From Bradyrhizobium diazoefficiens (GTDB lineage: Bacteria > Pseudomonadota > Alphaproteobacteria > Rhizobiales > Xanthobacteraceae), in assembly GCF_016599855.1 (NCBI RefSeq), contig NZ_CP067041.1:6138001-6202000 (forward strand): DNA of 64,000 nucleotides. Reading direction: 5' to 3'. This document shows, piece by piece, positions 10,901 to 25,031 of the stretch. Under the pieces are notes generated by a model. It worked only from the letters and a program-made list of their open reading frames with translations, searched no databases and was not told the DNA's origin. Each line of letters opens with the position of its first letter. Positions within the stretch are counted from its first letter, which is position 1. The position numbers and the translations under genes were made by a program.

Positions 10901-11951
10901 GACCCTCGCCTTCCTGGAGGAAGCTGCTGTTCGAAGTTCTCCAGGCGCGCTTGCCGCGATTATCCCGATCATGATGGCGAGTGGGCTGAGGCCCGCGAGT
11001 GCTATCCGCCGCTGGGTGATCGAGAGCCAGGACCATGATGGCGCGACTGCTGCGACAAAAGCGGCGATTGCCACTGATGATCAGGCGCTGATTCGGTTGG
11101 CGCTCAGGCACAGCCGCGCTGACGCACGCCAAACCGCGCTCGAATATCTCGCATCTCTTGTGCCGGATCCGCTTCCATCCGAGCTACTTAGCCTTGCCGA
11201 CGATCGGGGCAGCCGGGTTCGCCGTTCGTTGGTCGCTGCACTTAGCCAGCGACCACATCCAGATCATCTGCCTGTGCTTATGCAGCTGAGCCACGATCGA
11301 TGGTCTGACGCGGATCCGCACTATGAAGAGCCAGAATCCTATCCGATTGCGCGCGACGCTGTCGCCGCAATTTCGCGATACGGGACGCTTTCAAACGAAA
11401 CAGGCGTCGCCCTCATCAAGTTGGGCAAAGAAACGGCCGACCGGCAACTTCGCCGGGACGCATTTGCTTGCGCAAGCGAACTCTGTGGGCCAGAGATTCG
11501 GGGAGAACTTTGGGCGCTCACCACGAATAGAGAGCTTGGTTGGCCGCGGGTCGACGCCATGGACGCCCTCAGCACGGCCTCAGTGATTGAGGCGGATATA
11601 GTCGGAAAAATCACGGCAGAACGGCTGATGCGGTTTCCCGCCCCCTTGGCGGCCTCGGCCGTGGCGTTGGTGAGCGCACACTTGCCGGTCGGAGACGCGG
11701 TCCGACTCCTTGAGCAGGTCGGCCATTCCTATTCACATCGTGCGCTCCTCCTCGTTGGGGCGGTTGGGCTCGAGAAGCGTGACCGGGGCGCTGCTCTTGG
11801 CCTCCTCAATTTGCTTGACGCCAATCATCCCGCTCGAAGGTTGCTTGAATCCGGGGGGCTTCTGTCGCCTACCGCCTTAGACGATCTCGGCGATGTCCGA
11901 ATTCGCCGATATGTTCGGCAATGGCTGAAAGATCGTATCGCAAAGAAATGA
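7962..11951 (+). CDS. Avs-like protein: Cap4/DUF4297-type nuclease, nSTAND3 NTPase, helical repeats
   Basis: The 1,329-residue product has three parts. Residues 20-200 resemble Cap4 (DUF4297) dsDNA endonucleases, opening with GYEYQLN and carrying IVQVKFRSG at about 86-94, where Q-V-K would be the PD-(D/E)xK core with acidic residues at 55-65. Residues 250-550 form a STAND NTPase: Walker A GPSGTGKT (272-279), Walker B LFYVED (320-325), sensor VVTSRSD (357-363), then a winged-helix segment ending FAHPSVRAGFE. The remaining 780 residues are alpha-helical, with HEAT-like repeats near 1090-1200. Avs proteins use this order to recognise phage proteins with the C-terminal repeats and then cut DNA. 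The start is the ATG at 7962, without a strong ribosome site. Antiphage function is inference from architecture. Confidence 0.85.
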   Translation: MKGSVQAPLPPKRAPNLSSGAAAQTGYEYQLNTSVLAALRLLLITKSATRITLEPANEEDLEADLAPSQLGRVVPSATLANGSRLIVQVKFRSGEPWSIQDFDNLLNHGEERTPAKHHLDDPDTRYLLVTNADAKGAARKLLVSDFEEQPDASDFPPSLRSTLPNSPEGRVAIWGGASERLIEFEIGEILADLLRVPYSRQTDCRKQLREEARRRMRGSVPGVWTRDDLLATIRAHGGYLASAAELVAFVKPSNFEQMAALLQNKNAIVITGPSGTGKTLAALALCDLMRQRNGQLEVVSINPNEDPAVTRRFMDTGPTLFYVEDPWGQYSLRRGAEAWTEQLPRLLKDARPGHQYVVTSRSDMLDHARADEALKRWSVELSADQYSGGELAQIYDKRMDLLATDLQPKALEFRKETLETLETPLELDLFFTNLADGPQLKEADHEFLRRLLGLAHRDAVEGVVVKYLDSIDKIGLSAVIWALLVARGQIERLTLTALQRQLRKTDAPLGDSLEKAFDRLVATRHLRQPSRTVSFAHPSVRAGFEAFLKENWPRNEATLQILVTALTGMTGGYRTWGVETAAHVLDSVNSLRATIEGAETKFVPSKADQATIDTWLEESLLAPDAEFQPLLKLAAAVGSDVSIPSELARWFLKGVRRGGDLFMEDWKPPEFSDAWYDRVSADPRSAPIADRFIREQLPRDHGRYGRDFVVKLDRVATGLTPAFLTVARQMVGTGFDSNVDAVAAGAIRDLDGYEIVLMEALDDLAAIQRSYEQKSKDEWRAIEDGEYDKAYEEHYSTSNDDEGYASGVFIGTYISVIREAGQWRELARHGRSSEFAAYWAHDAARSDPPPTVDELRAILETSRTGGDEAAAWEAALRCWDRSCDTILAERILAQPSDDRLRRALIGCACAAAPAVLVASFKALEVSPSAFVQLLVDVHAAQDKKAPERTRSVLKDLSSKAIEIFNAFGSETDAPSAIGKTTLAFLEEAAVRSSPGALAAIIPIMMASGLRPASAIRRWVIESQDHDGATAATKAAIATDDQALIRLALRHSRADARQTALEYLASLVPDPLPSELLSLADDRGSRVRRSLVAALSQRPHPDHLPVLMQLSHDRWSDADPHYEEPESYPIARDAVAAISRYGTLSNETGVALIKLGKETADRQLRRDAFACASELCGPEIRGELWALTTNRELGWPRVDAMDALSTASVIEADIVGKITAERLMRFPAPLAASAVALVSAHLPVGDAVRLLEQVGHSYSHRALLLVGAVGLEKRDRGAALGLLNLLDANHPARRLLESGGLLSPTALDDLGDVRIRRYVRQWLKDRIAKK

Positions 11952-12178: not shown

Positions 12179-14098
12179 GTGGCCGAACGCAGAGATCAAA
12201 TCACTGAGTCCGCATCGGCTGCTCATGTATTAGACTACACCGGGTGGATCCGCCGAGCGGACGTCTCGCTGCGATCTCACTATCCCAATCTCGTCACGCG
12301 CATTTTTGAAATCGCTCCCTACCAGTTTCGCATCGTATTCGATCGTTCGTTGCAGGATGCGGCGCGGGTGGACTTTGACGAGTTTCGGCCAGCCACTCTT
12401 CAGGCCGCCGTTTCGAATGACATTCCTGCGACGTTTATTCGCGAAATTCCAACGATCCTCGACAACCAACTAGCGCGTAACTTCGAAGGATTTCCGTTCA
12501 ATACCAGTCAGCTCTTCAATTTGGTCGCGGGGCGATTTCCTGACCTTCCGATCGCCGGGATCCGTGACGGCGGCACGCCAATGACAATCACCGTCGAGCT
12601 CCGCTCTACGCTCGAACCGGCCCAGGAACGAGAGGTGCTGGATTTTTGCAATGACATCGGCGCTCCCGCGCCCTTCCGGCTAGAAGTGAGCAGCCGACCC
12701 ACGAGCAACGCGGAAGACTTGCCCCCTCGCCCGCCGATCGGTATGGATGACACCCTTTTCGTGAGAGCGTTTCGGGTACGCACTTCTGCGCCGTCCTTTA
12801 TCCGGGCCGACGAGGCATTTTGGTTTTCCAATTTGGATCGGATTTACGCGGGTGGTCTCTCTGTCGAGCAAATCCCCGGTATTGAAGAGGGAGACAGTCG
12901 GTGTTTCGTGGACGCGACGATCGGCGAACACGTCAATCTTCGCCAACTTTTGACCCTTTACGACACGATCTATATGAGCCCGCCGCTTCGGGAAGGGCAC
13001 GAGGCTTTCCTTGCGAAACAAGGCCTTACGGAAAATGATATCCTGACCCTCATCGAGCGAGGCCGGCTTCGGATCATATCCACGCAAGCCGAAGAACGAC
13101 TTAAGATCTCGTTTCTTTCCGAAGCGGCCGAGCGCGCACCGTCAGCCATTATCGGCCGTCGCACCACGGCCGCGATGTTGATCGCGGACCTGGTACAAAC
13201 AGCGGAGGAATATCGGCTTCGCGACAGCAGTCACTATCCGGCCATTAGTGAACTCAGCAAGCTCTTAAGCAAAACAAGCGGAATTCGCGCCAACGAAATT
13301 CTGGAGTTCATCCTGTGGCCGGTGCAGGTAAGGCGCGCTGCAATTTGGCCTCTGCTTGAGCGTGGGTCGAAGGGTATCCCGCCGATCGGTCTGGGACCAT
13401 TTTTTGCGACCTTCATCGAGAAGATTGGCAAGAAAGATCTCGAATTTGAAGCCCTTATGGTCAGCGAGAGAGTCCACATAGGACACGCGCTGGGGGCGAC
13501 GGTATTTTCACCGCGCGAGGAGCCGGAGGGCCTCCAAGTTCTCGGCAATGCCATGGGTGACGTGCTGAATTTTTTCCGGTCCTTCAACATTCGAGTTGCT
13601 GCCGCATGGGTCGGAAACGTGGAGCGAAAAGAAGCACGCAAGTTGCTTCTCCCGCCGCTTCCCCTATTCGAGTTTGATCCTGAGATTCCCATTGAGGAAA
13701 TACTTGCCGCAACTGATCGACCGGTCATGCGTAACCGAGGCCGGGCGCTGTTTAGCCGGCTTGTGGACATGACCGAAGAACAACAGGCCGACGAAATCCG
13801 CAACTTGAATGCGGCCCTTCGCCGTCATGGTCGTCCCGCCGGCCTCATATCCCTGGACAACCTGGATACGGGAATTTCGCTGGCGTCTCTTGCCTATGGT
13901 TTTATTTACCCGCCGGTTGCTGGATTGCGCACCTTGGGCGGCCAGTTGGTCGAGCTGGGCCGAAAACATCCGGTGATCGACAAGCTCTTTGAAGCGATTC
14001 AGGCTGATTTATTCCCCGCTGGCGTCAGCAAACGCGAACTCGACTTCCTTTCTAGTATCAGCCGCGTCGCTTTTATCAAAACGGTGAAGGTCTCGTAG
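12179..14098 (+). CDS. Unrecognised 639-residue protein downstream of the STAND gene
   Basis: The GTG at 12179 follows GAGGAG with 8 bases between, a strong ribosome site. The protein is soluble and mixed alpha/beta. Residues 1-260 contain strand-rich segments such as EIAPYQFRIVFD; residues 260-400 are helical; residues 400-500 include FFATFIEKIGKK and SERVHIGHALGATVFSP; the last 150 residues are helical with a short hydrophobic patch near 585-600. I see no Walker, nuclease, protease or membrane signature. It lies 227 bp behind the STAND gene in the same direction, so it may belong to the same immune module or be separate cargo. Confidence 0.7.
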   Translation: MAERRDQITESASAAHVLDYTGWIRRADVSLRSHYPNLVTRIFEIAPYQFRIVFDRSLQDAARVDFDEFRPATLQAAVSNDIPATFIREIPTILDNQLARNFEGFPFNTSQLFNLVAGRFPDLPIAGIRDGGTPMTITVELRSTLEPAQEREVLDFCNDIGAPAPFRLEVSSRPTSNAEDLPPRPPIGMDDTLFVRAFRVRTSAPSFIRADEAFWFSNLDRIYAGGLSVEQIPGIEEGDSRCFVDATIGEHVNLRQLLTLYDTIYMSPPLREGHEAFLAKQGLTENDILTLIERGRLRIISTQAEERLKISFLSEAAERAPSAIIGRRTTAAMLIADLVQTAEEYRLRDSSHYPAISELSKLLSKTSGIRANEILEFILWPVQVRRAAIWPLLERGSKGIPPIGLGPFFATFIEKIGKKDLEFEALMVSERVHIGHALGATVFSPREEPEGLQVLGNAMGDVLNFFRSFNIRVAAAWVGNVERKEARKLLLPPLPLFEFDPEIPIEEILAATDRPVMRNRGRALFSRLVDMTEEQQADEIRNLNAALRRHGRPAGLISLDNLDTGISLASLAYGFIYPPVAGLRTLGGQLVELGRKHPVIDKLFEAIQADLFPAGVSKRELDFLSSISRVAFIKTVKVS

Positions 14099-14386: not shown

Positions 14387-14406
14387 GAGCTAAGCGCGCT
14401 TAGCTC
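14387..14406. terminator. 20-bp perfect palindrome at convergent gene ends
   Basis: GAGCTAAGCG followed by its exact reverse complement lies at 14387-14406 and includes the stop codon of the Cys-rich E2-like gene. It is at the end of the convergent 301-bp gap that follows the 639-residue gene, so it may act as a transcription barrier for either side. No T-run follows, so a rho-independent terminator is not proven. The rest of 14099-14386 shows nothing recognisable. Confidence 0.4.
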
Positions 14407-15134
14407 GACCGGGCAATTGCTTTGAGCCGGCATTCGAGCATGGTGCCGCAACATTGCAAACCGGACATCGAGCGCCAGAAGCGGTCGACCGCTGCGCGTC
14501 GTTCGAACTCGAGTTCTATCGGGCATCCGAGGCACTGGCACTCCCGTCGGAGGAGCGGTTTGCCGGTCCGGTGCTTGCGGCCGCAAAGGCAGGGACTCCG
14601 ACCGTTCCGCAAGCGTCCGGTCGCCTTGTTGATCCTGGAAAGTCCCGCCGCGATCGGGCCGATATCGAACTCAACGGCGTCGCGATAGGCGGCACTGGCG
14701 CCGGTTTCGGCCGCCGCTTGCTCGGCGAGGAGCTCGATATCGCCCGCATCGCCATGGGAGAGCTGAGCGCCGGAAGGCCAAAGTCCGGCCTCCGCAGCGG
14801 TCTCTTGGCAAAGCAGGAACGCGTGAAGCTTCGTCCACCAGGTCGCCGCGGTCGCCGAGTTGATCCCCTGGCCGGCCCGAAGACCTAGGCAGAAGGAACC
14901 GTCAGCGTTGATGTGGCGCTCAGGACAAAACGTTGGCAGAGTTTTGCCTCTGACCCGTTCGTACACCGTCACCTCAGCAGCGAGATGCAGGACTTCCAGC
15001 TCGAACAACCGGGTGAAAGCCCCGCTGCTTCGCACGAGGACGGCGTCCACTTCGGCTGCGCGAGTGCCGATCCGGCGGAATTCGGCCCAAGGCGGAACAG
15101 TGTCGGCGATCGCGTCGAGGGCCACCGGCGCCAA
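14400..15134 (-). CDS. E2-like, Cys-rich ubiquitin-conjugation-type protein
   Basis: E2 enzymes carry a ubiquitin-like protein or, in CBASS, a cyclase C-terminus on a catalytic Cys. The segment at about residues 70-88 has CPERHIN followed by GSFCLGLRAG, matching the HPN-type motif plus catalytic Cys (Cys82) of prokaryotic E2 proteins. The C-terminal third has eight Cys, including CLCGRKHR (182-189) and CQCLGC (199-204), which may bind zinc. The length is 244 residues. No ATG or GTG is available; the TTG at 15134 lies 8 bp after the cyclase stop and is the best start, implying coupling. The family fits proteins annotated as E2-domain-associated cysteine-rich. Confidence 0.75.
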   Translation of the reverse strand: MAPVALDAIADTVPPWAEFRRIGTRAAEVDAVLVRSSGAFTRLFELEVLHLAAEVTVYERVRGKTLPTFCPERHINADGSFCLGLRAGQGINSATAATWWTKLHAFLLCQETAAEAGLWPSGAQLSHGDAGDIELLAEQAAAETGASAAYRDAVEFDIGPIAAGLSRINKATGRLRNGRSPCLCGRKHRTGKPLLRRECQCLGCPIELEFERRAAVDRFWRSMSGLQCCGTMLECRLKAIARSS

Positions 15135-15142
15135 CCGATCGA

Positions 15143-16624
15143 TCAGCGCTTCGAACGCGCAGCGTGCGACCGAGCGGCCGGCTCGCTGCGCATGATCTGG
15201 ACGGCCGGAGACTGAGAAGCGCCGAGAAGATCCGAAGCGGTGTCGAACGACATTAATCGTCCCGTCGCGATGATCCGTCGGACCGCGGCGTCGGCAACCT
15301 GCTGGGCGACGACGCCCAGCCGGATTCCGCTACCCTCGATGCTCTGTTGCGTCCGCTCGGCATTGATGGTGGCCCGGCTGGCTGCGCACCGGACGCTGTC
15401 GTCGCCGCGATATCCCAGCCGGGTCATCGGCGTCGGACCATATTCCACGCCGATAGCCAGGCCGATCGCCGCATCGGAATCCACCGCGTCGAGGCAAAGG
15501 TCGAACGACGATCGCATGCCGTTGGCGCAAATTACGGCCTGTCGCACGGAGCCGGGACCGTCGTCGGTCCGCTCGCCTTCCGCCACGCAGCCCTGGATGC
15601 AGTCACCCACGAACCTCACGCGCTTACCGCCGAAGTCGTCGTTCAGGACCGAGTTGAGCTCCTCGCGGATGACATGGACCGTTCTCACTGCCTTTGTGAT
15701 TTCGACCGCGCCGCCCTCGATGGCCTGATCAACGAAGTCGGTGAAGCCGTCGATGTCGGCGAAGATCGACGCCATGCCCATGCGCACGGAGTTCGCCGGC
15801 GAGAGATCCGCGAATTTGACGCTGGCGAGCGGCAGCTCCGGTCGCTTGAAGCGAAAGATCGGCTCGACGGCGTCCTGAGCGACCTCATCGACCCTGCGCT
15901 CGAGGCTGTCGAACGCGAAGCTCCCCACCGCGTCGCGGATGTAGGTCTCGTCGAGCACTGTCCGGCCGGCGGACTTGCGGACGGCGCCTGGCCGCGCCCG
16001 CTGCTGCGCGGTCTCGGTCAGGAAGATGCCCGCTTCGTCTTCGGCGGCGGCGAGCTTTGCCGCATGATTGGCGGGACGTCCGAGGAATAGTGTGTCCTTC
16101 TCGTGCGAGCGGCCGGTCGTCATGGCCAGGCACCTGCCATGATCGATTCCAAAGCGGATGCGGGACGGAAAGCCATGCGCTTGGCCGAGCCGTTCGGCGG
16201 CTTCCGAGAGCTTGCCCGCGAGAGCGACAGCTCGGGTGATCTGCGCCGCAGCGTCTCCGGCCGGCGACGTGATAACGGCGTGGAGCCGGGCGCCGTGATA
16301 GTCGACCCGGTCGCCGTCATCATTATCCACGACGGCGTCCCAGACACGATAGTGCATATTGAGGAATCGCAATAGCCTGCGATGCGAGCCCTCCGTTTCG
16401 GAGCCGCCCTCAGCGACAAGACCGTCGAAGTCCAGCAACTGGCCGTAGAGGTGAACGCCCTCGACGAGAAAGGCCTGGCGGATCGGAAGTCGACCGATCA
16501 GGCCGCTCTTGCGGACCGTGGTCTGGGCTTGCGCGGAATCGAGCGCGATGTTGCTGTCGACAGCCGGCACGGTCTTCAGATGCTCCCGGATCCTCGTCTT
16601 AGCCCGGTCCGCATTCCACGACAT
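15143..16624 (-). CDS. Tandem-domain class III nucleotide cyclase (cyclase 1)
   Basis: Two cyclase homology domains lie in one 493-residue soluble chain. The C-terminal domain has both metal-binding aspartates, in IFADIDGFT (Asp290) and RFVGDCIQG (Asp341). The N-terminal domain lacks them (LYGQLLDF) but has the transition-state motif LGRPANHAAK (Asn186, Lys190), which is degenerate in the C-terminal domain (VRCAASRA). Together they could form one active site, like the C1/C2 pair of animal adenylyl cyclases. The ATG at 16624 has GAGGAGG 7 bases upstream. It sits 12 bp behind the cNMP-domain cyclase and just before the E2-like gene. The product nucleotide cannot be read from sequence; a paralogue is at 21505-23055. 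Confidence 0.82.
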   Translation of the reverse strand: MSWNADRAKTRIREHLKTVPAVDSNIALDSAQAQTTVRKSGLIGRLPIRQAFLVEGVHLYGQLLDFDGLVAEGGSETEGSHRRLLRFLNMHYRVWDAVVDNDDGDRVDYHGARLHAVITSPAGDAAAQITRAVALAGKLSEAAERLGQAHGFPSRIRFGIDHGRCLAMTTGRSHEKDTLFLGRPANHAAKLAAAEDEAGIFLTETAQQRARPGAVRKSAGRTVLDETYIRDAVGSFAFDSLERRVDEVAQDAVEPIFRFKRPELPLASVKFADLSPANSVRMGMASIFADIDGFTDFVDQAIEGGAVEITKAVRTVHVIREELNSVLNDDFGGKRVRFVGDCIQGCVAEGERTDDGPGSVRQAVICANGMRSSFDLCLDAVDSDAAIGLAIGVEYGPTPMTRLGYRGDDSVRCAASRATINAERTQQSIEGSGIRLGVVAQQVADAAVRRIIATGRLMSFDTASDLLGASQSPAVQIMRSEPAARSHAARSKR

Positions 16625-16636
16625 GAGATAGCCTCC

Positions 16637-17749
16637 TCAGCACGAATAGACGTCGAGCTCGACGCCATGCTTCACGTTCGCTTTCACAGGACCCCGGAAC
16701 GTTTCAGGGGCGATGCCCGCTTCGACGGCAAGTTCCCGAAGAACCGGGCTAACGCGGACCTGACCCAGATCAGATGACTTCGCCTGTTCGTATCTGGCCG
16801 CCGTGTTGACGGTCGCGCCGAGCACGGTCACGGCGATCCTCTGCTCGGCCCCAAAGTCGCCGAACGCGACATCTCCGGCGTGCAAGCCGATACGGATTCC
16901 GATATCGAGGCCATTCTCCGTGACGTAGCGCCCGACCTCTTCGGCGATCGTCGTCGCGCATCGGATGACGGCGGCGGGCTCGACGCGCTCGCGTTCAGCG
17001 GTGTCGATGAACCAATAGGCCATCACGCCGTCGCCCATGAGCTTGTCGATCTGCCCGCCAGCCTTTCGGATCAGATCGATCTGGAGGGAACAGAGTCGAT
17101 GAAGGTGAGATGCGACTTCACCGGAGTCCTTGCCGGTTGACCAGACGCTGAAGTTGGCGATGTCGCTGAAGAACACGATCGCCTTTCGGGGCTGGATCCG
17201 CGGAGTTTGTCCAGCCGCAGCGACCTTAACGAGGCCAAGCGCGTCATCGTCGGAGAACCGACGCAGAAGATGTTCCTGTTCGGCGACCGAGATGCGCAGC
17301 TCCGACCGCCCCTGAGTCGCCTGCGCCAACTTCATGTTCACGACGTCGGCAAGCGTCAGAACCCAGATGGTTTTCTCGGGATCGGTCAATCGCTCCTGAA
17401 AGGCGGCATCGATGAAGAACAGCCGGACCGGGCCGATGGCCTTGACGTCGGCAGTCCGGGCGCCGTTCTTTCCGGCAAGGACATGCAACAGACCCTGCTC
17501 GCCGAACATCTCGCCTTCGCCACGGAAGGTGACGCTCTGATCGTGGGCCCGGACTTCGACCTGACCACTGAGAACCAGCCAGCAGCCACTCACCCGATCC
17601 CCGCGGCGGCAGATCATGTGGTCGGGGTTATAGTCGTCGACCCGGCAGATTGGCTCGCGCAAGATCGCTGCCCGAATTAGGTCCGGCCTCGGACAATGCT
17701 GCTCGAGAAACCGCTCGAGCACTCGATCGACATTAGCGGCAAAGACCAT
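16637..17749 (-). CDS. cNMP-binding domain fused to class III nucleotide cyclase (cyclase 2)
   Basis: Residues 40-140 form a cyclic-nucleotide-binding domain with a phosphate-cassette-like signature, FGEQGLL followed by ARTADV. Residues 188-360 form a complete class III cyclase domain: metal Asp196 in FFSDIANFS, Lys236 and Asp240 in IDKLMGDGVMAYW, and Asn315/Arg319 in GATVNTAARY. A single such domain would work as a homodimer. The fusion suggests the enzyme reads a cyclic nucleotide, its own product or that of its neighbours, and responds by changing its activity. The 370-residue gene is first in the operon with cyclase 1 and the E2-like gene and is divergent from the XRE regulator. The ribosome site before the ATG at 17749 is weak. 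Confidence 0.85.
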   Translation of the reverse strand: MVFAANVDRVLERFLEQHCPRPDLIRAAILREPICRVDDYNPDHMICRRGDRVSGCWLVLSGQVEVRAHDQSVTFRGEGEMFGEQGLLHVLAGKNGARTADVKAIGPVRLFFIDAAFQERLTDPEKTIWVLTLADVVNMKLAQATQGRSELRISVAEQEHLLRRFSDDDALGLVKVAAAGQTPRIQPRKAIVFFSDIANFSVWSTGKDSGEVASHLHRLCSLQIDLIRKAGGQIDKLMGDGVMAYWFIDTAERERVEPAAVIRCATTIAEEVGRYVTENGLDIGIRIGLHAGDVAFGDFGAEQRIAVTVLGATVNTAARYEQAKSSDLGQVRVSPVLRELAVEAGIAPETFRGPVKANVKHGVELDVYSC

Positions 17750-17898
17750 GCTTGATTACCATTCCCGGCGCGCAGACGAGCCCGTCGGCTGATTCGCTTC
17801 CGCACCATCTGAAATACTGCTACTCCGAACATAGGAACCTGTTGCGGCGAGTCAAGGACGGGATATGCTGCTATACCGAACAAGTAAGGGCGAATTGC
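17750..17898. promoter_or_regulatory. Divergent promoter region between cyclase operon and XRE regulator
   Basis: This 149-bp gap must drive the minus-strand cyclase 2 operon and the plus-strand XRE-ImmA pair. The heptamer CCGAACA occurs twice, near 17824-17830 and 17876-17882, preceded by similar TAC/ATAC bases, and could be a repeated operator. AAGGG about 8 bases before the GTG at 17899 is the ribosome site of the regulator. Binding by the XRE protein is inference. Confidence 0.4.
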
Positions 17899-18207
17899 GT
17901 GGCTGACACCATTCGCGATCGCATTAAGGCGCTGAGAAAAAAGGCGAAATTAACCTTGGACCAGCTCGCCGACCGAGCCGGCTTGAGCAAATCCTATTTA
18001 TGGGAGCTCGAGAACCGGGAGTTGCCCCGCCCGTCCGGGGAGAAATTGGCCGGGTTAGCAAGGGCGCTTGACGTGACCGTCGACTACTTGCTGGGCAACG
18101 AAAATCTCGAATCGGCGGAGGACAAGGCCTTCTTCCGCGAGTACCAGGCGATGTCGCCGGAAGCGCGCGCCCGGCTCCGCAAGCTAGCCAAGGCCCTGGA
18201 CGAATAG
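17899..18207 (+). CDS. XRE-family transcriptional regulator
   Basis: The GTG at 17899 is preferred over an upstream frame start because the conserved domain begins here (ADTIRDRIKALRKKAKLTLD) and AAGGG precedes it. The helix-turn-helix spans about residues 10-60, with the segment LDQLADRAGLSKSYLWELE typical of Cro/CI-type repressors, followed by an acidic-basic helical tail. The length is 102 residues. The next gene, 7 bp downstream, is an ImmA/IrrE-type peptidase, a classical pair in which the peptidase cleaves or inactivates the repressor. Lying divergent to cyclase 2 and between the two halves of the cyclase/E1-E2 locus, it is the likely switch of that locus. Confidence 0.88.
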   Translation: MADTIRDRIKALRKKAKLTLDQLADRAGLSKSYLWELENRELPRPSGEKLAGLARALDVTVDYLLGNENLESAEDKAFFREYQAMSPEARARLRKLAKALDE

Positions 18208-18214
18208 GCCGCTC

Positions 18215-19063
18215 ATGGACTTCGAGGGTTGGGGACCTCGGCGTTGGGCGAGCCATTTCAACCAGATGCTGAATCTGGCGAACCCGCCTGATCGATACCG
18301 TTTCGACATCGGTGCGCTCGCCATGGAGACGTCGCGCTCCCTCTTCCCGGAAGATCCCATCACCAAGGTCGGTAACGAAGAGCTCGATGGATTCGCAGGC
18401 GCATTAGTGCCGTCCGCGTCGAGGACCAGGTGGGGGATCGTGTACGGCGCCGGCCAGTCGAGGGGCCGTCGCAGGTTCACCATCGCGCACGAATTCGGCC
18501 ATTACCTCCTGCACCGGAAGAAGTACCCCGACGGGATCCACTCCAGCGAAGCCGGCATCGACGGGCGGACCAGGCTGCAAATCGAAAGAGAAGCCAACGA
18601 GTTTGCCTCCTGGCTTCTGATGCCTCTCGACGATTTCAGACGGCAGGTGCCGCCGATGGGCAAGCCGGACTTTGACGTGTTGGGGGATTGCGCCGAGCGG
18701 TATGATGTGTCGCTAGTCGCTGCCATCCTTCAGTGGCTACGCTATACGGAACGAAGGGCTCTGCTCGTCGTCTCCGTAGACGGTTTCGTCAAGTGGTCGT
18801 GGTCGAGCGAGCGGGCGTTGACGACCGGGGCCTTCATCCGCACCAGCCGTGGCCCAATGGAGTTACCGCCGGCATCGGCGGCCGGTCGGGAACTGTTCAC
18901 GCCAGAGGCCCGGACCGGCGTCGATCACCCGACCGGCGTCTGGTTTGACGAGCCGGCGCGCGAACTCTCGTTCAAAAGCGAGCGCTACGACGCGGCATAC
19001 ACCCTTCTCTACTTGGGAGACGATCCCGGCTGGAACCGCGTTGCGCGTCGGCACTCACTCTGA
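18215..19063 (+). CDS. ImmA/IrrE-type zinc metallopeptidase (Peptidase_M78)
   Basis: The 282-residue product has the gluzincin motif HEFGHYLLH at about residues 92-100 and a downstream Glu in EREANEFASWLLMP, the standard ImmA/IrrE arrangement. The C-terminal 120 residues are not part of the catalytic core and may sense a ligand. ImmA cleaves its partner repressor during induction of ICEBs1, and IrrE/DdrO work likewise in Deinococcus. The start at 18235 is excluded because the ATG at 18215 lies 7 bp after the XRE stop. It is expected to relieve repression by the upstream XRE protein, thus activating the divergent cyclase operon; that link is inferred from position. Confidence 0.87.
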   Translation: MDFEGWGPRRWASHFNQMLNLANPPDRYRFDIGALAMETSRSLFPEDPITKVGNEELDGFAGALVPSASRTRWGIVYGAGQSRGRRRFTIAHEFGHYLLHRKKYPDGIHSSEAGIDGRTRLQIEREANEFASWLLMPLDDFRRQVPPMGKPDFDVLGDCAERYDVSLVAAILQWLRYTERRALLVVSVDGFVKWSWSSERALTTGAFIRTSRGPMELPPASAAGRELFTPEARTGVDHPTGVWFDEPARELSFKSERYDAAYTLLYLGDDPGWNRVARRHSL

Positions 19064-19299
19064 ACAGAAGCTCGACATGCACTGCGGTCGAACGGTGGAT
19101 CCAGGACAATGTCTTGTTCGAGCTCGGGCCGTTGATGGGAAAGCTGACCAGACATCGGTCGATCGTGGTCCATCCCAAGGTGAAGTAGATCCCGTCCGAT
19201 CTTCAGGCACTCATCCTCATCCAATTCGACTTGTCGATCGGCTAAAACCGGCGTGCGATCAGCTCTGCCAGATCATCAAGATGCGGGGCGCAAGGATGT

Positions 19300-19806
19300 T
19301 TACTTTTTGAATAGAATTCGCAGGCGGGAAAACAATCCTGGTGTTTTCCGTTCGAGCAAGACCACGACACGCTCCGGAGGTAGACCGGCCCGGAACAACG
19401 TCGCCGACATCTTCAATGATCTGCGAAAAAACAACCGCACAATGATGAGGACGGCAAAGTTCGCGCCTACTTCTGGATCTTCGACGATCTGGTACATCGC
19501 CTGGATATCGTTTCGGCTGGGCACGGGCTCGAACGTTGGATGCGAATGCCACTCTCCGATGTAGTTGAAGCGACGATAGTTGCCGCCCGTTCTAGCAAAG
19601 AAATCCGACAAGAAAGCTTTGCTCTGCTCCGGATCCCTGATGAAATGCAACGTCGTACCGCCCGACCTCTGCACTGAAAGTTCGACTATCCGGAAAGTCT
19701 CGCCGCCCACGTGCTCGGCGACCATCACGCCGCCGATCTCGTTGCGTCGCCCCCGCAGCTCGCGGCGCAGAAGGTCAGTTATCTTGCGCGGTAGGATCAG
19801 TTCCAC
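19300..19806 (-). CDS. JAMM/JAB-domain metallopeptidase (Cap3-like deconjugase)
   Basis: The 168-residue protein has the complete JAMM zinc site: Glu23 in NEIGGVMVA, then HSHPTFEPVPSRND with His87, His89, Ser97 and Asp100. JAMM peptidases remove ubiquitin-like modifiers; Cap3 of type II CBASS releases the cyclase from targets. It begins with GTG at 19806, overlapping the E2-E1 gene by 32 bp, and is last in the operon cyclase 3, E2-E1, JAB. A Lys/Arg-rich hydrophobic tail follows residue 118. The 236 bp between its stop and the convergent ImmA gene show nothing recognisable. Confidence 0.87.
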   Translation of the reverse strand: MELILPRKITDLLRRELRGRRNEIGGVMVAEHVGGETFRIVELSVQRSGGTTLHFIRDPEQSKAFLSDFFARTGGNYRRFNYIGEWHSHPTFEPVPSRNDIQAMYQIVEDPEVGANFAVLIIVRLFFRRSLKMSATLFRAGLPPERVVVLLERKTPGLFSRLRILFKK

Positions 19807-21508
19807 CGATCTTGTCCTTCAGCAACTCGAGCAACGTGGCGATCTCCGTGACCTTTTCCTGGTCCGACAGCTCGACGACTTCAGGCTCCGGCGGCGGCGG
19901 TCCGACATCGATCGGATAGGTATCGAACGACTGAGAAAACACCGAATCCGCGCCAAGGCCGATCGCATAGACCGAGTTGGGAAATCGAGACAGGTCACGA
20001 TCGACCAACAGATCGATGGCGAACCGGGCAGCGTGGGCCGCGATCACGGAAACGTCCGCGTCGTCGGCGGTCATGGGTACGTCAATGCCGGTGCCAATCG
20101 CTTCGTACGGCCGATGCGATCTTCTCGGCGACGATCCCTTTTCGCCGAACCAGTTCTCGATGGCGCGCCGCATGAATGGCGGTGGTGGCTCGATCCCCGG
20201 TCGATACCTGGCGATCAGGCCGCCGAACCCGCCGCCGAATACTTCCGCCCAGATTACGAGCTTCTTCGCGGACGCAGCCACTACCGAGAGCAGATTCAGC
20301 ACATTGGGATCCGCCGTCGCATCCAGCACGAGGTCGCATTCAGATATTTGTTTCAACATGGCATCGGCACTCTCGTTGGCCTCCTGCCCGCCAAGAGGCA
20401 CGCGCCATTGCAAGACGTCGACCGACGGGTTCACGAACTGCAGACGTCGAGCGAGCGCCGGCACCTTGTGCACTCCGGCGTCCCGCCAATCGAGGTCGTT
20501 CCGGACCAGGTTATCGGGAAGCAGAATATCGTCATCGACGAGCACGAAACCGCCTACACCGGATCTCGCAAGCATGGTCGCCGCCTTGCTGCCGAGCGAC
20601 CCGCACCCGATGATCGCGACCTTCTTTGCCGCGAGCACCGAATGAGCGGTGTCGAGACGCCTCGCTTCGGGCGGAGGCGATATGACAGCGACGTCCACGA
20701 CCGTGCTCTTTTTTCTGTCGAGGAAATAGACCGACAGCTCGGAGCCCTGCACGATGAGACCATACCTTGCTTCGAGCGTGTTTCCGACGGCAGCAAACCC
20801 GCTGTCGAACTCGTCCAGGCTTTCCGTCGAAGGTGGCGTATCGGTCTCATCCCATCGGCATATCGGCACGCGGCGTTCGGTGTATTCGGGCCCCAACTGC
20901 GACGGGACGGTGGGATCCGTCCATTGCGTGCCGTCGGCCAGCGTCACCTTGTCGACCACATGCACGACGGATTCCTTGTGATAGAGGGACACAAGGTTGG
21001 CTTCGAGCGGAGCGCGCAAGGGAAGCTCGCCAAGCAGCGCGCGAAAGGCGCGCGTCAGAAGATATCGGTTATATCGGATGCGGAGGCTTTGTCCGAGGCT
21101 TACGACGTGACGCGAGGGCGCGTCGCCTAACTCGTCGCCTCCCGGATTCTCGGTCACGAGCAGCTTATGACAGCTCTCTATCAGATCTCTGCCGGTGTTG
21201 TTGGCGGTCCATGTGTCCGGACCGTATTCAAGGCAGAGCTCGCCTCCGGCACCGAATTGATGCTCCGACCATCTGGCGGTATCCCGGCGCGGAAACACTG
21301 ACGGCGGGGTATGCGGAAACATGTCCGGATATTGGAGGTAGATCGGGTAAACCCGGCCTCCGGCTCCGATCTCGGCGTCGAGCACTAGACGAAGGCGATC
21401 GTCCAGCCGCCAGGCCGTTACGGCGAACCAGTCGACCTCCTGAGCTAGAATTTCGATTCCTTGCCGCTCCGTGCGGAACCGAGCGACGTCCGTTAGATAC
21501 CAGCTCAC
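19775..21508 (-). CDS. E2-E1 fusion (ThiF-fold), Cap2-like ubiquitin-type conjugation enzyme
   Basis: Residues 1-125 form an E2 domain: YLQYPDMFPHTPPSVFPR, then HQFGAGGELCLEYGPDTW with candidate catalytic Cys92. Residues 290-510 form the adenylating E1/ThiF domain, with KKVAIIGCGSLGS (295-307), the acidic end LVDDDIL and the later LDATADPNV. This order is that of Cap2 in type II CBASS, which activates the cyclase C-terminus and joins it to a target. No cysteine is present after residue 391, so the canonical E1 catalytic Cys is not evident; the segment EAIGTGIDVPMT has Ile where a Cys might be expected. The GTG start overlaps the cyclase 3 stop by 4 bp. It has 577 residues. Confidence 0.88.
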   Translation of the reverse strand: MSWYLTDVARFRTERQGIEILAQEVDWFAVTAWRLDDRLRLVLDAEIGAGGRVYPIYLQYPDMFPHTPPSVFPRRDTARWSEHQFGAGGELCLEYGPDTWTANNTGRDLIESCHKLLVTENPGGDELGDAPSRHVVSLGQSLRIRYNRYLLTRAFRALLGELPLRAPLEANLVSLYHKESVVHVVDKVTLADGTQWTDPTVPSQLGPEYTERRVPICRWDETDTPPSTESLDEFDSGFAAVGNTLEARYGLIVQGSELSVYFLDRKKSTVVDVAVISPPPEARRLDTAHSVLAAKKVAIIGCGSLGSKAATMLARSGVGGFVLVDDDILLPDNLVRNDLDWRDAGVHKVPALARRLQFVNPSVDVLQWRVPLGGQEANESADAMLKQISECDLVLDATADPNVLNLLSVVAASAKKLVIWAEVFGGGFGGLIARYRPGIEPPPPFMRRAIENWFGEKGSSPRRSHRPYEAIGTGIDVPMTADDADVSVIAAHAARFAIDLLVDRDLSRFPNSVYAIGLGADSVFSQSFDTYPIDVGPPPPEPEVVELSDQEKVTEIATLLELLKDKIGGTDPTAQDN

Positions 21509-23055
21509 GCAAAGCCGCCCGGCTTCGTCGGACCTGCCGGCCGGTCGGGGAAGCTCAGCGGCGCGGCGGCCGAGGATGCCGGCTTCAGAAGGCTTGCTCC
21601 CGCAGCGGTCTTAATGGCGCGCGCGACCGTGTCGTTCTTTCCGGCCATCCCGTTGAGCGCCGTTTCGTAGTCCAGGTCGCCGCGAATGCGCATCTCGCCG
21701 AAGAGCGCATGCACACCGTGACTCGATTTCGAGTAGGCGCTCGCCCCTATGGCGGTTTGATTGCCCTTGCAGCGGCCCTGCTCCTGCTCGGAGTTCAGGA
21801 TTCCGCGACTGACAGCACAACGGACGAGCCCGCCCTTCATGCCGAGGCGCGTCACCGTGATCGGCCCGTACTCGAAACCAATCTGAAGCCCGAGACTGGA
21901 GGCGTCGGTGCCCATGTCCTTGAGACGCTTCAGCGCGATCTTGAAGCTGCTCCGCATCGCGGCTGCGCATAAGGTCATGCTGCTGATGGTCTCAACCGCG
22001 TCGGTCGTCTGCGCGGTCCCTTCGGCCAACACGCCGTGAATGCAATCCCCGATGAATCTGATTTTTCGGCCCTGGAAGTCCTCGTGCAGCACTGCATCCA
22101 GTTCCGATCGCAGGACGTGCAGTGCGCGCACGACATGTTTCGCGCCCGCGTCGGTTCCCATGTTGGCTCCGACATAGACAGTGAAGCCATCCAGGTCGCC
22201 GTAGATCGAGGCGGCATCCTGCCGCCGCGAATTCTTCACCGACAGAGTCTCGATATCCAGGGTGGAGAATGGAGGCGTATGGCCTGAAAATACGAAATCA
22301 CCGATGGGATTGTTCTTCAGATCCTCAGTCCAGTCCTTGACGATACCGTCGACCGTCACGTCGAGGCGGGCGGCCTGCTGGCTCTTCGCAATTTCTTCGG
22401 CGTTCAGCGGCGTCTTGTCGACGTCCTGCGCTTCGGCAAGGCCGATCGCCTTCCGCGCTTCGTTGGTCAAGAAGATGCCCTGCGCGGAACCGCCGCCCGC
22501 GCGCTTGGCGGCATGGTTGGCCGGCCGTCCGAGAAAGAGCGGCTCGCGGTGACCTCTCCTTCCGTTGTTGACTGCGAGCGCCTTGCCCGTGTCGATACCG
22601 ACCCGGACCTTGGCCGCCGGATGATCGGCGTCCTCGCCGGTGCGCGCCAGGACGTCGATGATCAACTGTGCGGTCGCCACGGCACGACGAACGCGCTTCG
22701 CCTCGTCGTCGTATGGCTTAGTGAAAACGGTGTGAAGCCGCTGATTGTGGAAGTCGACGAATATCGATTCGACGGCGCCGATGATACGGTGCGCCGCGCG
22801 ATAGTGCATGTTCAGGAAGCGGAGCGTGCGCTTATGGCAGGTCTCTCCCTCGACCGTTGTGACGTTCAAAATGTCCTTCAGGTTCAGGATATCGGCATAC
22901 AGATGGACGCCATCGACGCGGTACGCCGTGTTGCCTGACAGCCCCGACAGGTCGGTTTCGCGGACGTATTCCTTGATCTCGATATCCTTGAGAGGCAACG
23001 AATCGATCTTCGCGTCGATCCGTTTGGTCGCGCGGCCACTATTCCAAGTACCCAT
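21505..23055 (-). CDS. Tandem-domain class III nucleotide cyclase (cyclase 3) with GGFA tail
   Basis: The ATG at 23055 is chosen because its product MGTWNSGRATKRID aligns with the start of cyclase 1 and AGGGG lies upstream; a longer frame to 23208 adds an unlikely leader. The 516-residue protein has an N-terminal cyclase-like domain with LGRPANHAAK (Asn180, Lys184) and a C-terminal domain with IYGDLDGFT (Asp287) and RFIGDCIHG (Asp337). As in cyclase 1, active-site residues are split between halves. The last 30 residues form a Ser/Pro/Ala tail ending PTKPGGFA. It directly precedes and overlaps the E2-E1 gene, so it is the best candidate for C-terminal conjugation. Confidence 0.83.
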   Translation of the reverse strand: MGTWNSGRATKRIDAKIDSLPLKDIEIKEYVRETDLSGLSGNTAYRVDGVHLYADILNLKDILNVTTVEGETCHKRTLRFLNMHYRAAHRIIGAVESIFVDFHNQRLHTVFTKPYDDEAKRVRRAVATAQLIIDVLARTGEDADHPAAKVRVGIDTGKALAVNNGRRGHREPLFLGRPANHAAKRAGGGSAQGIFLTNEARKAIGLAEAQDVDKTPLNAEEIAKSQQAARLDVTVDGIVKDWTEDLKNNPIGDFVFSGHTPPFSTLDIETLSVKNSRRQDAASIYGDLDGFTVYVGANMGTDAGAKHVVRALHVLRSELDAVLHEDFQGRKIRFIGDCIHGVLAEGTAQTTDAVETISSMTLCAAAMRSSFKIALKRLKDMGTDASSLGLQIGFEYGPITVTRLGMKGGLVRCAVSRGILNSEQEQGRCKGNQTAIGASAYSKSSHGVHALFGEMRIRGDLDYETALNGMAGKNDTVARAIKTAAGASLLKPASSAAAPLSFPDRPAGPTKPGGFA

Positions 23056-23458: not shown

Positions 23459-23755
23459 ATGAAGCGCCGTCGCAAGAACCGTGGCATACCGCCGCCCGCG
23501 CCGTTCGATATCGATACGCTGCCGGGCAGCTCTAATTTGACGGCATTGGAGGCGGCTGCCGTTATCCGGCGCACGCCCGGAGCGCTGGAGCAGTGGCGGC
23601 GCGATCCGAACCACCCGCTGAAATGGCGCCACGTCGATGGCCGTCCGCTCTATCGTGTCGATGCGGTGCGCGCCTACCTCGCCGGATGCGACAAGGCCAC
23701 TAAGCGGTCCCAGCCGCATAATGCTCGCGGAGACGGCCGAGCAGCTCAGCCTTGA
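23459..23755 (+). CDS. Excisionase/AlpA-like helix-turn-helix protein
   Basis: The ATG at 23459 begins MKRRRKNRGIPPPAPF, a basic leader, followed by a compact winged-helix segment: LTALEAAAVIRRTPGALEQW, then WRHVDGRPLYRVDAVRAYLAG. The second part is the usual end of MerR/AlpA-type excisionase domains, which bind attachment-site arms and steer recombination direction. The product has 98 residues. It converges with and overlaps the 3' end of the integrase gene by 56 bp, a common layout for recombination modules. Without a search, a simple regulator remains possible. Confidence 0.6.
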   Translation: MKRRRKNRGIPPPAPFDIDTLPGSSNLTALEAAAVIRRTPGALEQWRRDPNHPLKWRHVDGRPLYRVDAVRAYLAGCDKATKRSQPHNARGDGRAAQP

Positions 23756-25031
23756 TGGGGTCGAGCGGATTCGTCCGCTGCAGGCGCACGACCTTGCCGA
23801 TCCGAGTCGCGCCGACCAACTCCGCGATGTAATCATGGGCTGCTTCGAACGCCATCTTGCGGATGATCCACTGTTCGTCGTGATTGTAGACCTGATCGAT
23901 TCCGCTTGGCTTTTGCCCAACACACAGCCGCTGGATTTCGTTGTCGTAGCCACACCGTGACATGATGGTACGCAAGCTGCGCCTTAAGTCATGCATGGTG
24001 AACTTGGCGACGCTGGCTTCCTTGACCAGGCGGTTGACCATCTTGGTGAAGCCGGACATCTGGCCGCCGGTCTTCGGTGACGGGAAGACATAGTCGGAGG
24101 TTGCCCGCCGGAAATATTTCGCGGCCGTGAGCACCTCGTCAACCAAGTGAGTCCGCGGCACATCGTGGTGAAGCCCCATCTTGGTCCACGCCGCGTCGAA
24201 GGTGATCCGGTCGTCCATGATGTGCTTGCGCCACTCGATCATGGTAGGCTCGCTGCGGCGCGGGCCGCCCAGCAGGCACATGCGTGCCAGGAGACCGAAA
24301 GCGCCGAGCTTGCCGGATGCATCCCAAACCTTGATGATTTCCTCATCGGTTAGCGCGCGGCCCTTCGTTCGGCGTCCGACCCTTTGCGCACGGGTTTCCT
24401 TTGGCGCGCGATAGCCTGCGAGCACGTTGTGCTCGACGTAACCTTCGCCGACGCACCATTCGAGGAAGGTATGCACGTGCTTGCGCAAGTCCTTGGCTGC
24501 ACCGCGCTTGCCGGTTTTGGCAATCTTGTCGACCGCAGCCATGATCTGCCGTCGCGTCAGGTCCCCCACGCCGCTCTCGACGTGATCCTTGAGCCCGCGC
24601 CGCAGCGCCGACATTGCAGGCTTCCAGTTGACGACTTGACGTTCGGTCAAGGACGTCTGGTAGGGACCATCTTCAACAATTAGAATCGCCAGCGTGGTGC
24701 GCTGCTTCTCGGCTGCCTGCTGCCGCCGCGCCTCGCGCTTCGCGTCGTTCGGGTCCAAACCTTTGACGACCTCGCCTGCGGCGATCGTGGCGGCCTTGCG
24801 TGCGGCCTTCTCATTATATTTGGGCCACGCGCCCAGGGTCTTGCGCTGGGTCCCCCGCACACCCGGCTTGGTGAAGAGGTAGACCCAAGTCCGGCCGCCG
24901 GTGGCGCGCATGCGCAAGGCGAGGCCGGGCAGCTTATCGTCGTGGAGATAATGCTGCGCCTTACCCGGCGGCAGCGTTGCGTTGCGGATCACCGCATCGG
25001 TGAGTGTCAGCTGGTTGGCCGGCTCTGTCAT
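23700..25031 (-). CDS. P4-type tyrosine integrase
   Basis: Tyrosine recombinases of this group insert islands at tRNA 3' ends. The 443-residue product has the DUF4102-like N-terminal arm-binding part (LPGLALRMRATGGRTWVY), a core-binding helical region around 130-210 and the catalytic domain after about 225. Catalytic residues visible are the Arg in GGPRRSEP, HDLRRS for the His-x-x-Arg box, and the Tyr in VYNHDEQ. The ATG at 25031 has GAGAG-type purines upstream. A tRNA-like fragment lies 257 bp upstream, at 25288-25332, so the gene is next to the right attachment site. It looks intact, so the island may still be mobile. Confidence 0.93.
   Translation of the reverse strand: MTEPANQLTLTDAVIRNATLPPGKAQHYLHDDKLPGLALRMRATGGRTWVYLFTKPGVRGTQRKTLGAWPKYNEKAARKAATIAAGEVVKGLDPNDAKREARRQQAAEKQRTTLAILIVEDGPYQTSLTERQVVNWKPAMSALRRGLKDHVESGVGDLTRRQIMAAVDKIAKTGKRGAAKDLRKHVHTFLEWCVGEGYVEHNVLAGYRAPKETRAQRVGRRTKGRALTDEEIIKVWDASGKLGAFGLLARMCLLGGPRRSEPTMIEWRKHIMDDRITFDAAWTKMGLHHDVPRTHLVDEVLTAAKYFRRATSDYVFPSPKTGGQMSGFTKMVNRLVKEASVAKFTMHDLRRSLRTIMSRCGYDNEIQRLCVGQKPSGIDQVYNHDEQWIIRKMAFEAAHDYIAELVGATRIGKVVRLQRTNPLDPIKAELLGRLREHYAAGTA

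Follow-up and report, generated by a model that had tools for sequence, protein, structure and literature searches.

Organization of the locus

We analysed a 64,000-nucleotide stretch of the Bradyrhizobium diazoefficiens genome (hereafter the window; positions 6138001-6202000 of the genome's single 7.1-Mb contig), which carries an eight-gene locus at positions 14400-23055. The locus is formed by two adjacent modules of the Pycsar type (pyrimidine cyclase system for antiphage resistance) with clade A cyclases, which are encoded in two tight minus-strand operons flanking a divergent CapH-CapP regulator. The long module contains PycA, a Pycsar cyclase with two class III domains and a C-terminal tag, SFPDRPAGPTKPGGFA (21505..23055, minus strand; E-values of 1.7e-211 to PADLOC PycC and 4.3e-169 to 6YII), an E2-E1 fusion of Cap2 family PDLC00855 (19775..21508, minus; PADLOC 3e-189), and a Cap3-like JAMM/JAB isopeptidase (19300..19806, minus; Pfam Prok-JAB 1e-12, PADLOC JAB 2e-57). 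PycA and E2-E1 genes overlap by 4 bp, and E2-E1 and JAMM genes by 32 bp. The short module is composed of a class III cyclase fused to a cyclic-nucleotide-binding domain (CNBD-cyclase; 16637..17749, minus; Pfam cNMP_binding 2.6e-13 and Guanylate_cyc 3.6e-11, PADLOC PDLC00734 2.5e-137), a second tandem-domain Pycsar cyclase, PycB, without the GFA tag (15143..16624, minus; PADLOC PycC 1.5e-157), and a stand-alone E2 with a Cys-rich C-terminal domain (14400..15134, minus; Pfam E2-ntca 1.4e-19 and E2-Crich 6.4e-9, PADLOC E2 4.3e-56). The gaps between these genes are 12 bp (CNBD-cyclase/PycB) and 8 bp (PycB/E2).

Proteases of the CapP family are activated by single-stranded DNA and cleave CapH. Between the two modules lie, on the plus strand, a CapH XRE-type repressor (17899..18207; PADLOC capH 1.8e-27; the GTG start at 17899 is inferred and likely) and a CapP ImmA/IrrE-type protease (18215..19063; Pfam M78 4.5e-22, PADLOC capP 9e-64), i.e. 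a helix-turn-helix repressor and an ImmA protease that adjoin an immune operon. The 149-bp interval between the CNBD-cyclase and CapH genes (17750..17898) is, by its position, the divergent control region; it contains one promoter-like site, on the minus strand, where chance alone would give 1.8 such sites in the 9.6 kb that were scanned. Pairs of this kind are stated to regulate adjacent immune operons, including Pycsar and the cyclic oligonucleotide-based antiphage signalling systems (CBASS; PMC13373217).

A sequence-only reading that preceded this analysis had described an E2-E1 fusion, a JAMM peptidase, a Cys-rich E2 and an XRE/ImmA pair in two minus-strand operons, and these were all confirmed by PADLOC and Pfam matches and by the gene coordinates. 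It had also named three class III cyclases; two of them are indeed the tandem-domain enzymes PycA and PycB, but the third is a CNBD-cyclase fusion.

Cyclases PycA and PycB

PycA shares 56% identity with PaPycC (6YII) and has the same two-domain fold (root-mean-square deviation of 1.2 Å), and both PycA and PycB are full-length matches of the PADLOC Pycsar cyclase model. PaPycC was classed as a clade A PycC by Hou et al. 2024 (PMC11224242), clade A cyclases being those with two consecutive cyclase domains, and its product is cyclic UMP (cUMP; PMC12489823). PycA has the two class III domains and the complete active site of this clade: D287, D337 and N180 are invariant in 48 aligned rows, and R417 in 31 rows. 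The protein is predicted to form one composite site, to which domain 2 would contribute the metal-binding Asp residues D287 and D337 and domain 1 the Asn residue N180. The active-site residues of PycB (D290, D341, N186 and R417) are also present. The AlphaFold2 model of PycA is well folded (mean predicted local distance difference test score, pLDDT, of 89.6), with a disordered tail at residues 488-516 (pLDDT <50).

E2-E1, JAMM and lone E2

In the E2-E1 fusion, E2 Cys92 is kept in 38/38 aligned sequences, the window included. The best Foldseek match of its model is Cap2-CdnD02 (614 columns, E 6e-19, with a TM-score of only 0.31), and BubCD ranks next. One and the same Cap2 profile matches the window protein with 629 bits, two more PycC-linked proteins with 583 and 664 bits and five proteins from CBASS with 632-722 bits. 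The JAMM residues E23, H87, H89, S97 and D100 are kept in all 34 aligned sequences, and the enzyme scores far under the NCBIfam Cap3 equivalog cut-off (33.7 of 200 bits). The lone E2 of the short module has its catalytic Cys at position 82, and this Cys is kept in 55/55 aligned sequences. The family of this E2 was already known, as Pfam contains the E2-ntca and E2-Crich families. Two further arrangements were seen. In an Acinetobacter locus (L116, 7502-8259), the E2 and Cys-rich domains are encoded by two genes, next to those for a TIR effector and a clade A cyclase. In a P. aeruginosa plasmid, an E2-Cys-rich frame follows pycC in a pycTIR-pycC operon (L113, 8722-9297) and is absent from the record's (incomplete) gene table.

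Linkage of clade A cyclases to conjugation genes

A cyclase-only alignment of seven sequences ending GFA/GYA and one PycB, which reaches clade A only, was searched against 84,980 species, each represented by one genome, and gave 105 pattern matches at 74 loci, to which 20 further loci, ten plasmid loci and the window were added. Rows covering less than 75% of the cyclase query (e.g. L110-L112 and L170) were dropped, and copies with identical ends, as in the duplicate records L149 = L040 and L150 = L039, were counted once, so that 108 copies were reduced to 95 distinct, near-full-length ones. When the next gene is defined as one that lies no more than 700 bp from the cyclase and shares its strand, it encodes E2-E1 after 38 of the 95 cyclases (hereafter long) and a lone E2 after 55 (short); the remaining two lie at contig ends (L050, with 0 bp left, and L079, with 424 bp left). 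A JAB gene is found within 4.5 kb of 35 of the 38 long cyclases. The sequence-only reading would have been undermined by cyclases that rarely neighbour E2-E1/JAMM genes, and for clade A the outcome was the opposite.

PycTIR-like matches occur within 4.5 kb of 29/38 long and 43/55 short cyclases, counts that are slightly high as remnants above 38 bits were included. The corresponding numbers are 5/38 and 15/55 for transmembrane (TM) effectors, 6/38 and 11/55 for CNBD-cyclases, and 0/38 and 4/55 for DUF2235 phospholipases. None of these four types was found within 4.5 kb of four long cyclases (two of them on short contigs) and three short ones. Five loci (L088, L104, L105, L055 and L056) have a cyclase with E2 or E2-E1 and 10 kb of sequence on each side, with the four effector types absent within 4.5 kb, and possibly carry unknown effectors.

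Within the genus (265 genomes, including that of the window), the cyclase is present in 25 genomes and E2-E1 in 17, in 15 of which it lies at a cyclase. The CNBD-cyclase is present in 11 of these 265 genomes, always ≤20 bp from a PycB-type cyclase. Across the phylum (398 genomes, again including that of the window), the cyclase was found in four. Given these frequencies, the distribution of the cyclase is sporadic, as for defence genes.

The two modules are separable, since the short one stands alone in L160, L161 and L168 and the long one in many loci; the six core genes of the sequence-only reading are therefore not one obligatory set. This separability would also fit two independent defence modules that are adjacent only through a common integration hotspot and a common regulator. 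We regard that possibility as doubtful, as the window and four other carriers (L147-L150) have the double module in the same order, two of the four at only 64-88% protein identity, and a single CapH-CapP pair lies between the modules.

A C-terminal tag that accompanies E2-E1

The identity of the partner gene is reflected in the end of the cyclase. Of the 38 cyclases linked to E2-E1, 37 terminate in GFA or GFS (the exception, L117, ends in RHA), and none of the 55 lone-E2-linked cyclases ends in GF[AS]. Among the best 120 of 1437 PycA homologues, 117 end in GFA, two in GYA and one in GFS. With its GFA end, PycA has the terminal Ala or Gly that characterizes the messenger enzyme of type II CBASS; in cGAS-like enzymes, conservation of a last Gly/Ala was described as restricted to operons that contain both Cap2 and Cap3 (Jenson 2023, PMC10097602).

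A near-identical tail, F-P-D-R-P-x-x-P-x-K-P-x-G-F-A, is present on the cGAS/DncV-like nucleotidyltransferases (CD-NTases) encoded in CBASS operons whose Cap2 belongs to the family found in the window. Plasmid relatives of the window E2-E1 comprised 126 records, of which eight among the matches listed were examined. Seven adjoin CD-NTases, and the eighth (L210) is a PycC locus cut by the end of the record. SMODS or DncV-like domains were detected in 6/6 scanned CD-NTases from this set. Their tails include SFPDRPVKPNKPGGFA (L207), TFPNRPLIPKKPGGFA (L205) and SFADTPRTPKKPDGFA (L206), compared with SFPDRPAGPTKPGGFA in PycA.

To quantify this similarity, a scoring matrix was built solely from 30 distinct PycC tails. 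The test set consisted of nine genes preceding E2-E1, namely the seven plasmid CD-NTases and unscanned open reading frames (ORFs) of L213 and L214 (a similar ORF of L212 was left unscored). The background comprised 1115 tails of six-frame ORFs of ≥250 aa from the loci, with GFA/GFS ends removed and some non-genes included. Seven of the nine genes outscore all 1115 background tails. L214 ties with the best background tail, which is probably L214 itself, and L211 fails, having extra residues after the tag. Among the best 120 of 865 homologues of one CD-NTase, 106 end in GFA; of their 99 distinct tails, 94 outscore the best of the background, and 94 remain above its 99th percentile when the last three residues are removed. 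In the same comparison, the lone-E2 PycC tails gave 0/55. The presence of the tail on CD-NTases that share the Cap2 family thus provides independent support for the tag on PycA.

A CD-NTase from B. cereus is conjugated to PspA through Ala331, and the substitutions A331E, E2 C91R and E1 C403R each lead to loss of immunity in that system (Krueger 2024, PMC11153139). Two Bacillus homologues of the L207 CD-NTase (P0149/P0150) are 331 aa long and end in FPDRP[VI]EPKKPGGFA; for this reason, the conjugated B. cereus enzyme probably belongs to the tagged family of the L207 type.

In a tree of 41 E2-E1 sequences, the PycC-linked and CD-NTase-linked proteins lie close together, and the PycC group requires two changes. 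The exceptional L117 cyclase is accompanied by an E2-E1 that PADLOC assigns to a different family, PDLC00836, and ends in GGTRHA. Six plasmid relatives of this E2-E1 (34-46% identity; not profile-scanned) sit with DncV-like CD-NTases, which end in GGGRHA in L215 (a split gene), L217, L218 and L220, in GGGRYG in L219 and in GGRYAGSALP in L216. For both Cap2 types, the tail goes with the ligase and not with the cyclase fold, the second case, with the tag GG[GT]RHA, being represented by one class III cyclase. The strength of the case for a tag lies in two unrelated enzymes having two tags in common.

The residues that follow the tag in the CD-NTases of L211, L212 and L216 could mean that these proteins are processed before conjugation, as is the case for ubiquitin precursors.

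Effector decay, selection and mobility

A fragment of a PycTIR effector gene, which the sequence-only reading had missed, lies at ~19090..19289 on the plus strand (tblastn, 56% identity over 45 aa, E 1.3e-8); its reading frame is broken and contains an internal stop. L149 (from the same genome as L040) has a whole PycTIR at the position of this remnant. The same remnant is present in L148 (tblastn) and L147 (reading frames), and L150 retains at most a trace, as judged by eye. For a TM effector, no match better than E 0.23 was found at the window locus. As an adjacent TIR or TM effector is lacking, the locus is Pycsar-derived and not a complete classical Pycsar.

Despite the decay of the TIR gene, all eight genes are open and stop-free in the window and in L147-L150. 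The ratios of replacing to silent substitution rates (dN/dS) between the window and these four carriers are 0.03-0.46, mostly <0.25, and the eight genes are under purifying selection. The maximum of 0.46, in the comparison with L148, corresponds to three silent and four replacing changes for E2-Crich and to 21 and 29 for E2-E1. The TIR remnants with their stop and frame breaks, together with the E2-E1 value, could be taken to mean that the locus is dying and that, once the TIR effector was lost, the rest became a functionless remnant. This is very unlikely, because a broken TIR gene in the window, in L147 and L148, and seemingly also in L150, is in each case accompanied by eight intact genes, with low dN/dS and intact active sites.

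The eight genes, together with a tyrosine integrase gene of the island that carries them (23700..25031, minus; Pfam Arm-DNA-bind_3 2.8e-13, Phage_integrase 9.4e-8), are common to genomes G631 and G669 at 92-97% DNA identity, and little else is shared leftward. Beside the integrase gene, at ~25300, there is a tRNA-like 3′ end with CCA, which was not called by ARAGORN and is possibly the integration site. Just left of the island, the window encodes an nSTAND3 protein of 1329 aa (7962-11951, plus; Pfam 1.7e-16) and a 639-aa protein (12179-14098, plus) for which searches of Pfam, PADLOC and NCBIfam gave no match at E 0.1 and of which only the end is shared with G669. These two neighbours are possibly another defence gene pair.

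CNBD-cyclase as a candidate receptor

At the window locus, no intact gene for a cyclic-nucleotide receptor was seen apart from that of the CNBD-cyclase. The catalytic half of the CNBD-cyclase has a full active site (D196, D240, K236, T308, N315 and R319), and K236 and T308 are found in 13/13 aligned sequences. In class III cyclases, Lys at the position of K236 marks adenylyl cyclases and Glu marks guanylyl cyclases; the residue that aligns with this Lys in Cya2 (2W01), a guanylyl cyclase, is Glu. In the binding domain, Glu84 and Arg98 of the phosphate cassette are retained. In PsPycTIR, uracil is read by Asn143 and Arg138 (PMC11224242). At the PycTIR Asn position (67/67), the CNBD-cyclases have Thr145 in 13/14 rows (one gene is entered twice), and at the Arg position (59/67) they have Lys140 in 14/14 rows; the positions were matched by their five-residue spacing, as the automatic alignment had a gap there. 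Because K236 and T308 are kept and the Asn/Arg pair is replaced, the CNBD-cyclase most likely works as an adenylyl cyclase whose gating nucleotide, a cyclic one, differs from that of PycTIR or is bound in a different manner. Alongside the CNBD-cyclases of L049, L102, L117 and L160, no TIR, TM or DUF2235 match was found, and in these loci the CNBD-cyclase may substitute for the effector.

Proposed mechanism

We consider it likely that E2-E1 conjugates PycA by its tail and that JAMM reverses the reaction, as in type II CBASS, with two Pycsar-derived modules under one CapH-CapP switch. We infer the conjugation, its target, the nucleotides and the role in defence along the following lines. CapP, activated by single-stranded DNA, would cleave CapH, and the operon(s) would be turned on. 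The Cap2-family E2-E1 would adenylate Ala516 at the end of the flexible GFA tail of PycA and pass it to E2 Cys92, so that PycA would become attached to lysines of cell proteins, from which JAMM would remove it. Conjugation would set the readiness of the cyclase to make a cyclic nucleotide (probably cUMP) upon infection. In the short module, the lone E2 would do a related job for PycB, whose tail differs. The CNBD-cyclase would probably act as receptor and relay; in relatives the effector is a CNBD-TIR protein, whose gene is decayed in the window.

Several observations weigh against this mechanism. The partner (E2-E1 or E2) changes only twice on the PycC tree (obtained by a quick method and with long branches), so the contrast of 37/38 with 0/55 does not represent many independent events, and the Fisher p of 3e-25 for the association of tail and partner overstates the case, as the counts are not independent. 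The last residue is Ser in five of the 38 cyclases linked to E2-E1; when the terminal Gly of the cGAS-like enzyme of one CBASS was replaced by Ser, conjugation was abolished (Jenson 2023, PMC10097602). The candidate E1 Cys391 is missing in 7/33 E2-E1 homologues, and the CD-NTases of L211, L212 and L216 extend 3-5 residues beyond the tag (KPQGFGG[AT]E, GGRYAGSALP). At the receptor side, the Arg and Asn residues by which PycTIR recognizes cUMP are absent from the CNBD, and the locus showed no TIR, TM or phospholipase effector in intact form.

The Ser-ended tails also bear on a different scheme, in which E2-E1, E2 and JAMM act on an effector or a phage protein and the cyclase tail binds another partner non-covalently. 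The lone-E2 cyclases would fit this scheme as well, as they have no conserved last residue (13/55 end in A, G or S), and the E2 of the short module may differ in its use of the C-terminus. We nevertheless consider it unlikely, because the conserved part of the tail is the extreme C-terminus (GFA), in a segment that is disordered in the model, and because matching tails are present on CD-NTases whose Cap2 is of the same family, a CD-NTase probably of that family being conjugated through its last Ala (PMC11153139).

Cap2 conjugation has so far been studied with CD-NTases. If this ligase family also conjugates a class III cyclase such as PycA, and does so by the shared tail, ubiquitin-like priming would act as a layer of control common to immune messengers that are unrelated, and Pycsar would gain a testable control step upstream of the cyclase. 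We lean slightly towards the broader view that each Cap2 family has a private C-terminal tag that decides the client, not its fold, i.e. a portable code with two tags, each found on CD-NTases and class III cyclases, and that the CNBD-cyclase may be a gated adenylyl cyclase that adds a second signalling step. With such a code, immune systems could swap their messenger chemistry and keep its control, and the tag could be used for predicting further clients. The shared tails suggest that bacterial immune systems have a movable conjugation tag in common.

Comparison with known systems

The sequence-only reading had proposed an undescribed system in which a CBASS-type E2-E1/JAMM pair controls a class III cyclase. 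The gene linkage and the conserved C-terminal tag give this proposed control good support. The cyclases themselves, however, are members of Pycsar clade A (56% identity to 6YII), a defence family already described, and the locus is a Pycsar variant. E2/E1/JAB genes next to cyclases of this type may be listed by Burroughs and Aravind 2020 and Tal 2021. In open-access full texts, we found no report of Pycsar joined to Cap2-type conjugation, a linkage that may well be tabulated in the primary Pycsar paper or the Burroughs surveys (2015, J Bact 2020); it was also not found in the available portions of PMC12657218, PMC10952713, PMC10286901, PMC13424991 and PMC13373217. We likewise found no mention of the shared tag in the texts consulted.

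The lone E2 beside a messenger enzyme recalls the short CBASS with E2 only that Yan reportedly described in 2024. However, the window E2 has a Cys-rich domain and pairs with a class III cyclase. The E2 and E1 folds are also those of Bub/Bil systems, but no ubiquitin-like protein of that kind was found among the ten window proteins scanned with Pfam, a scan in which small unlisted genes could be missed; by analogy, the cyclase tail would fill the role of this protein. The CapH-CapP regulator has the usual combination of a helix-turn-helix protein and an ImmA protease divergent from an immune operon, but here a single pair is placed between two modules.

Type II CBASS is matched by the Cap2 E2-E1 fusion, for which one Cap2 model fits both systems, by the JAMM/Cap3-like isopeptidase and by the C-terminal tag. 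In contrast to type II CBASS, the messenger enzyme in the window is a class III cyclase, and no CD-NTase (SMODS/DncV), SAVED, patatin or nuclease effector was detected by Pfam among the same ten proteins. Pycsar clade A is matched by the two-domain fold of PycA and by PycB, which fits the same model, and in relatives the usual neighbour is PycTIR or PycTM. Clade A is described as a cyclase and a receptor (PMC11224242), whereas the window operons add E2-E1/JAMM or E2, have a CNBD-cyclase at the expected place of the receptor and are joined as two modules. In summary, the locus would be a double arrangement in which Pycsar-type cyclases are controlled by conjugation in the manner of type II CBASS, the portable tag being its newest element.

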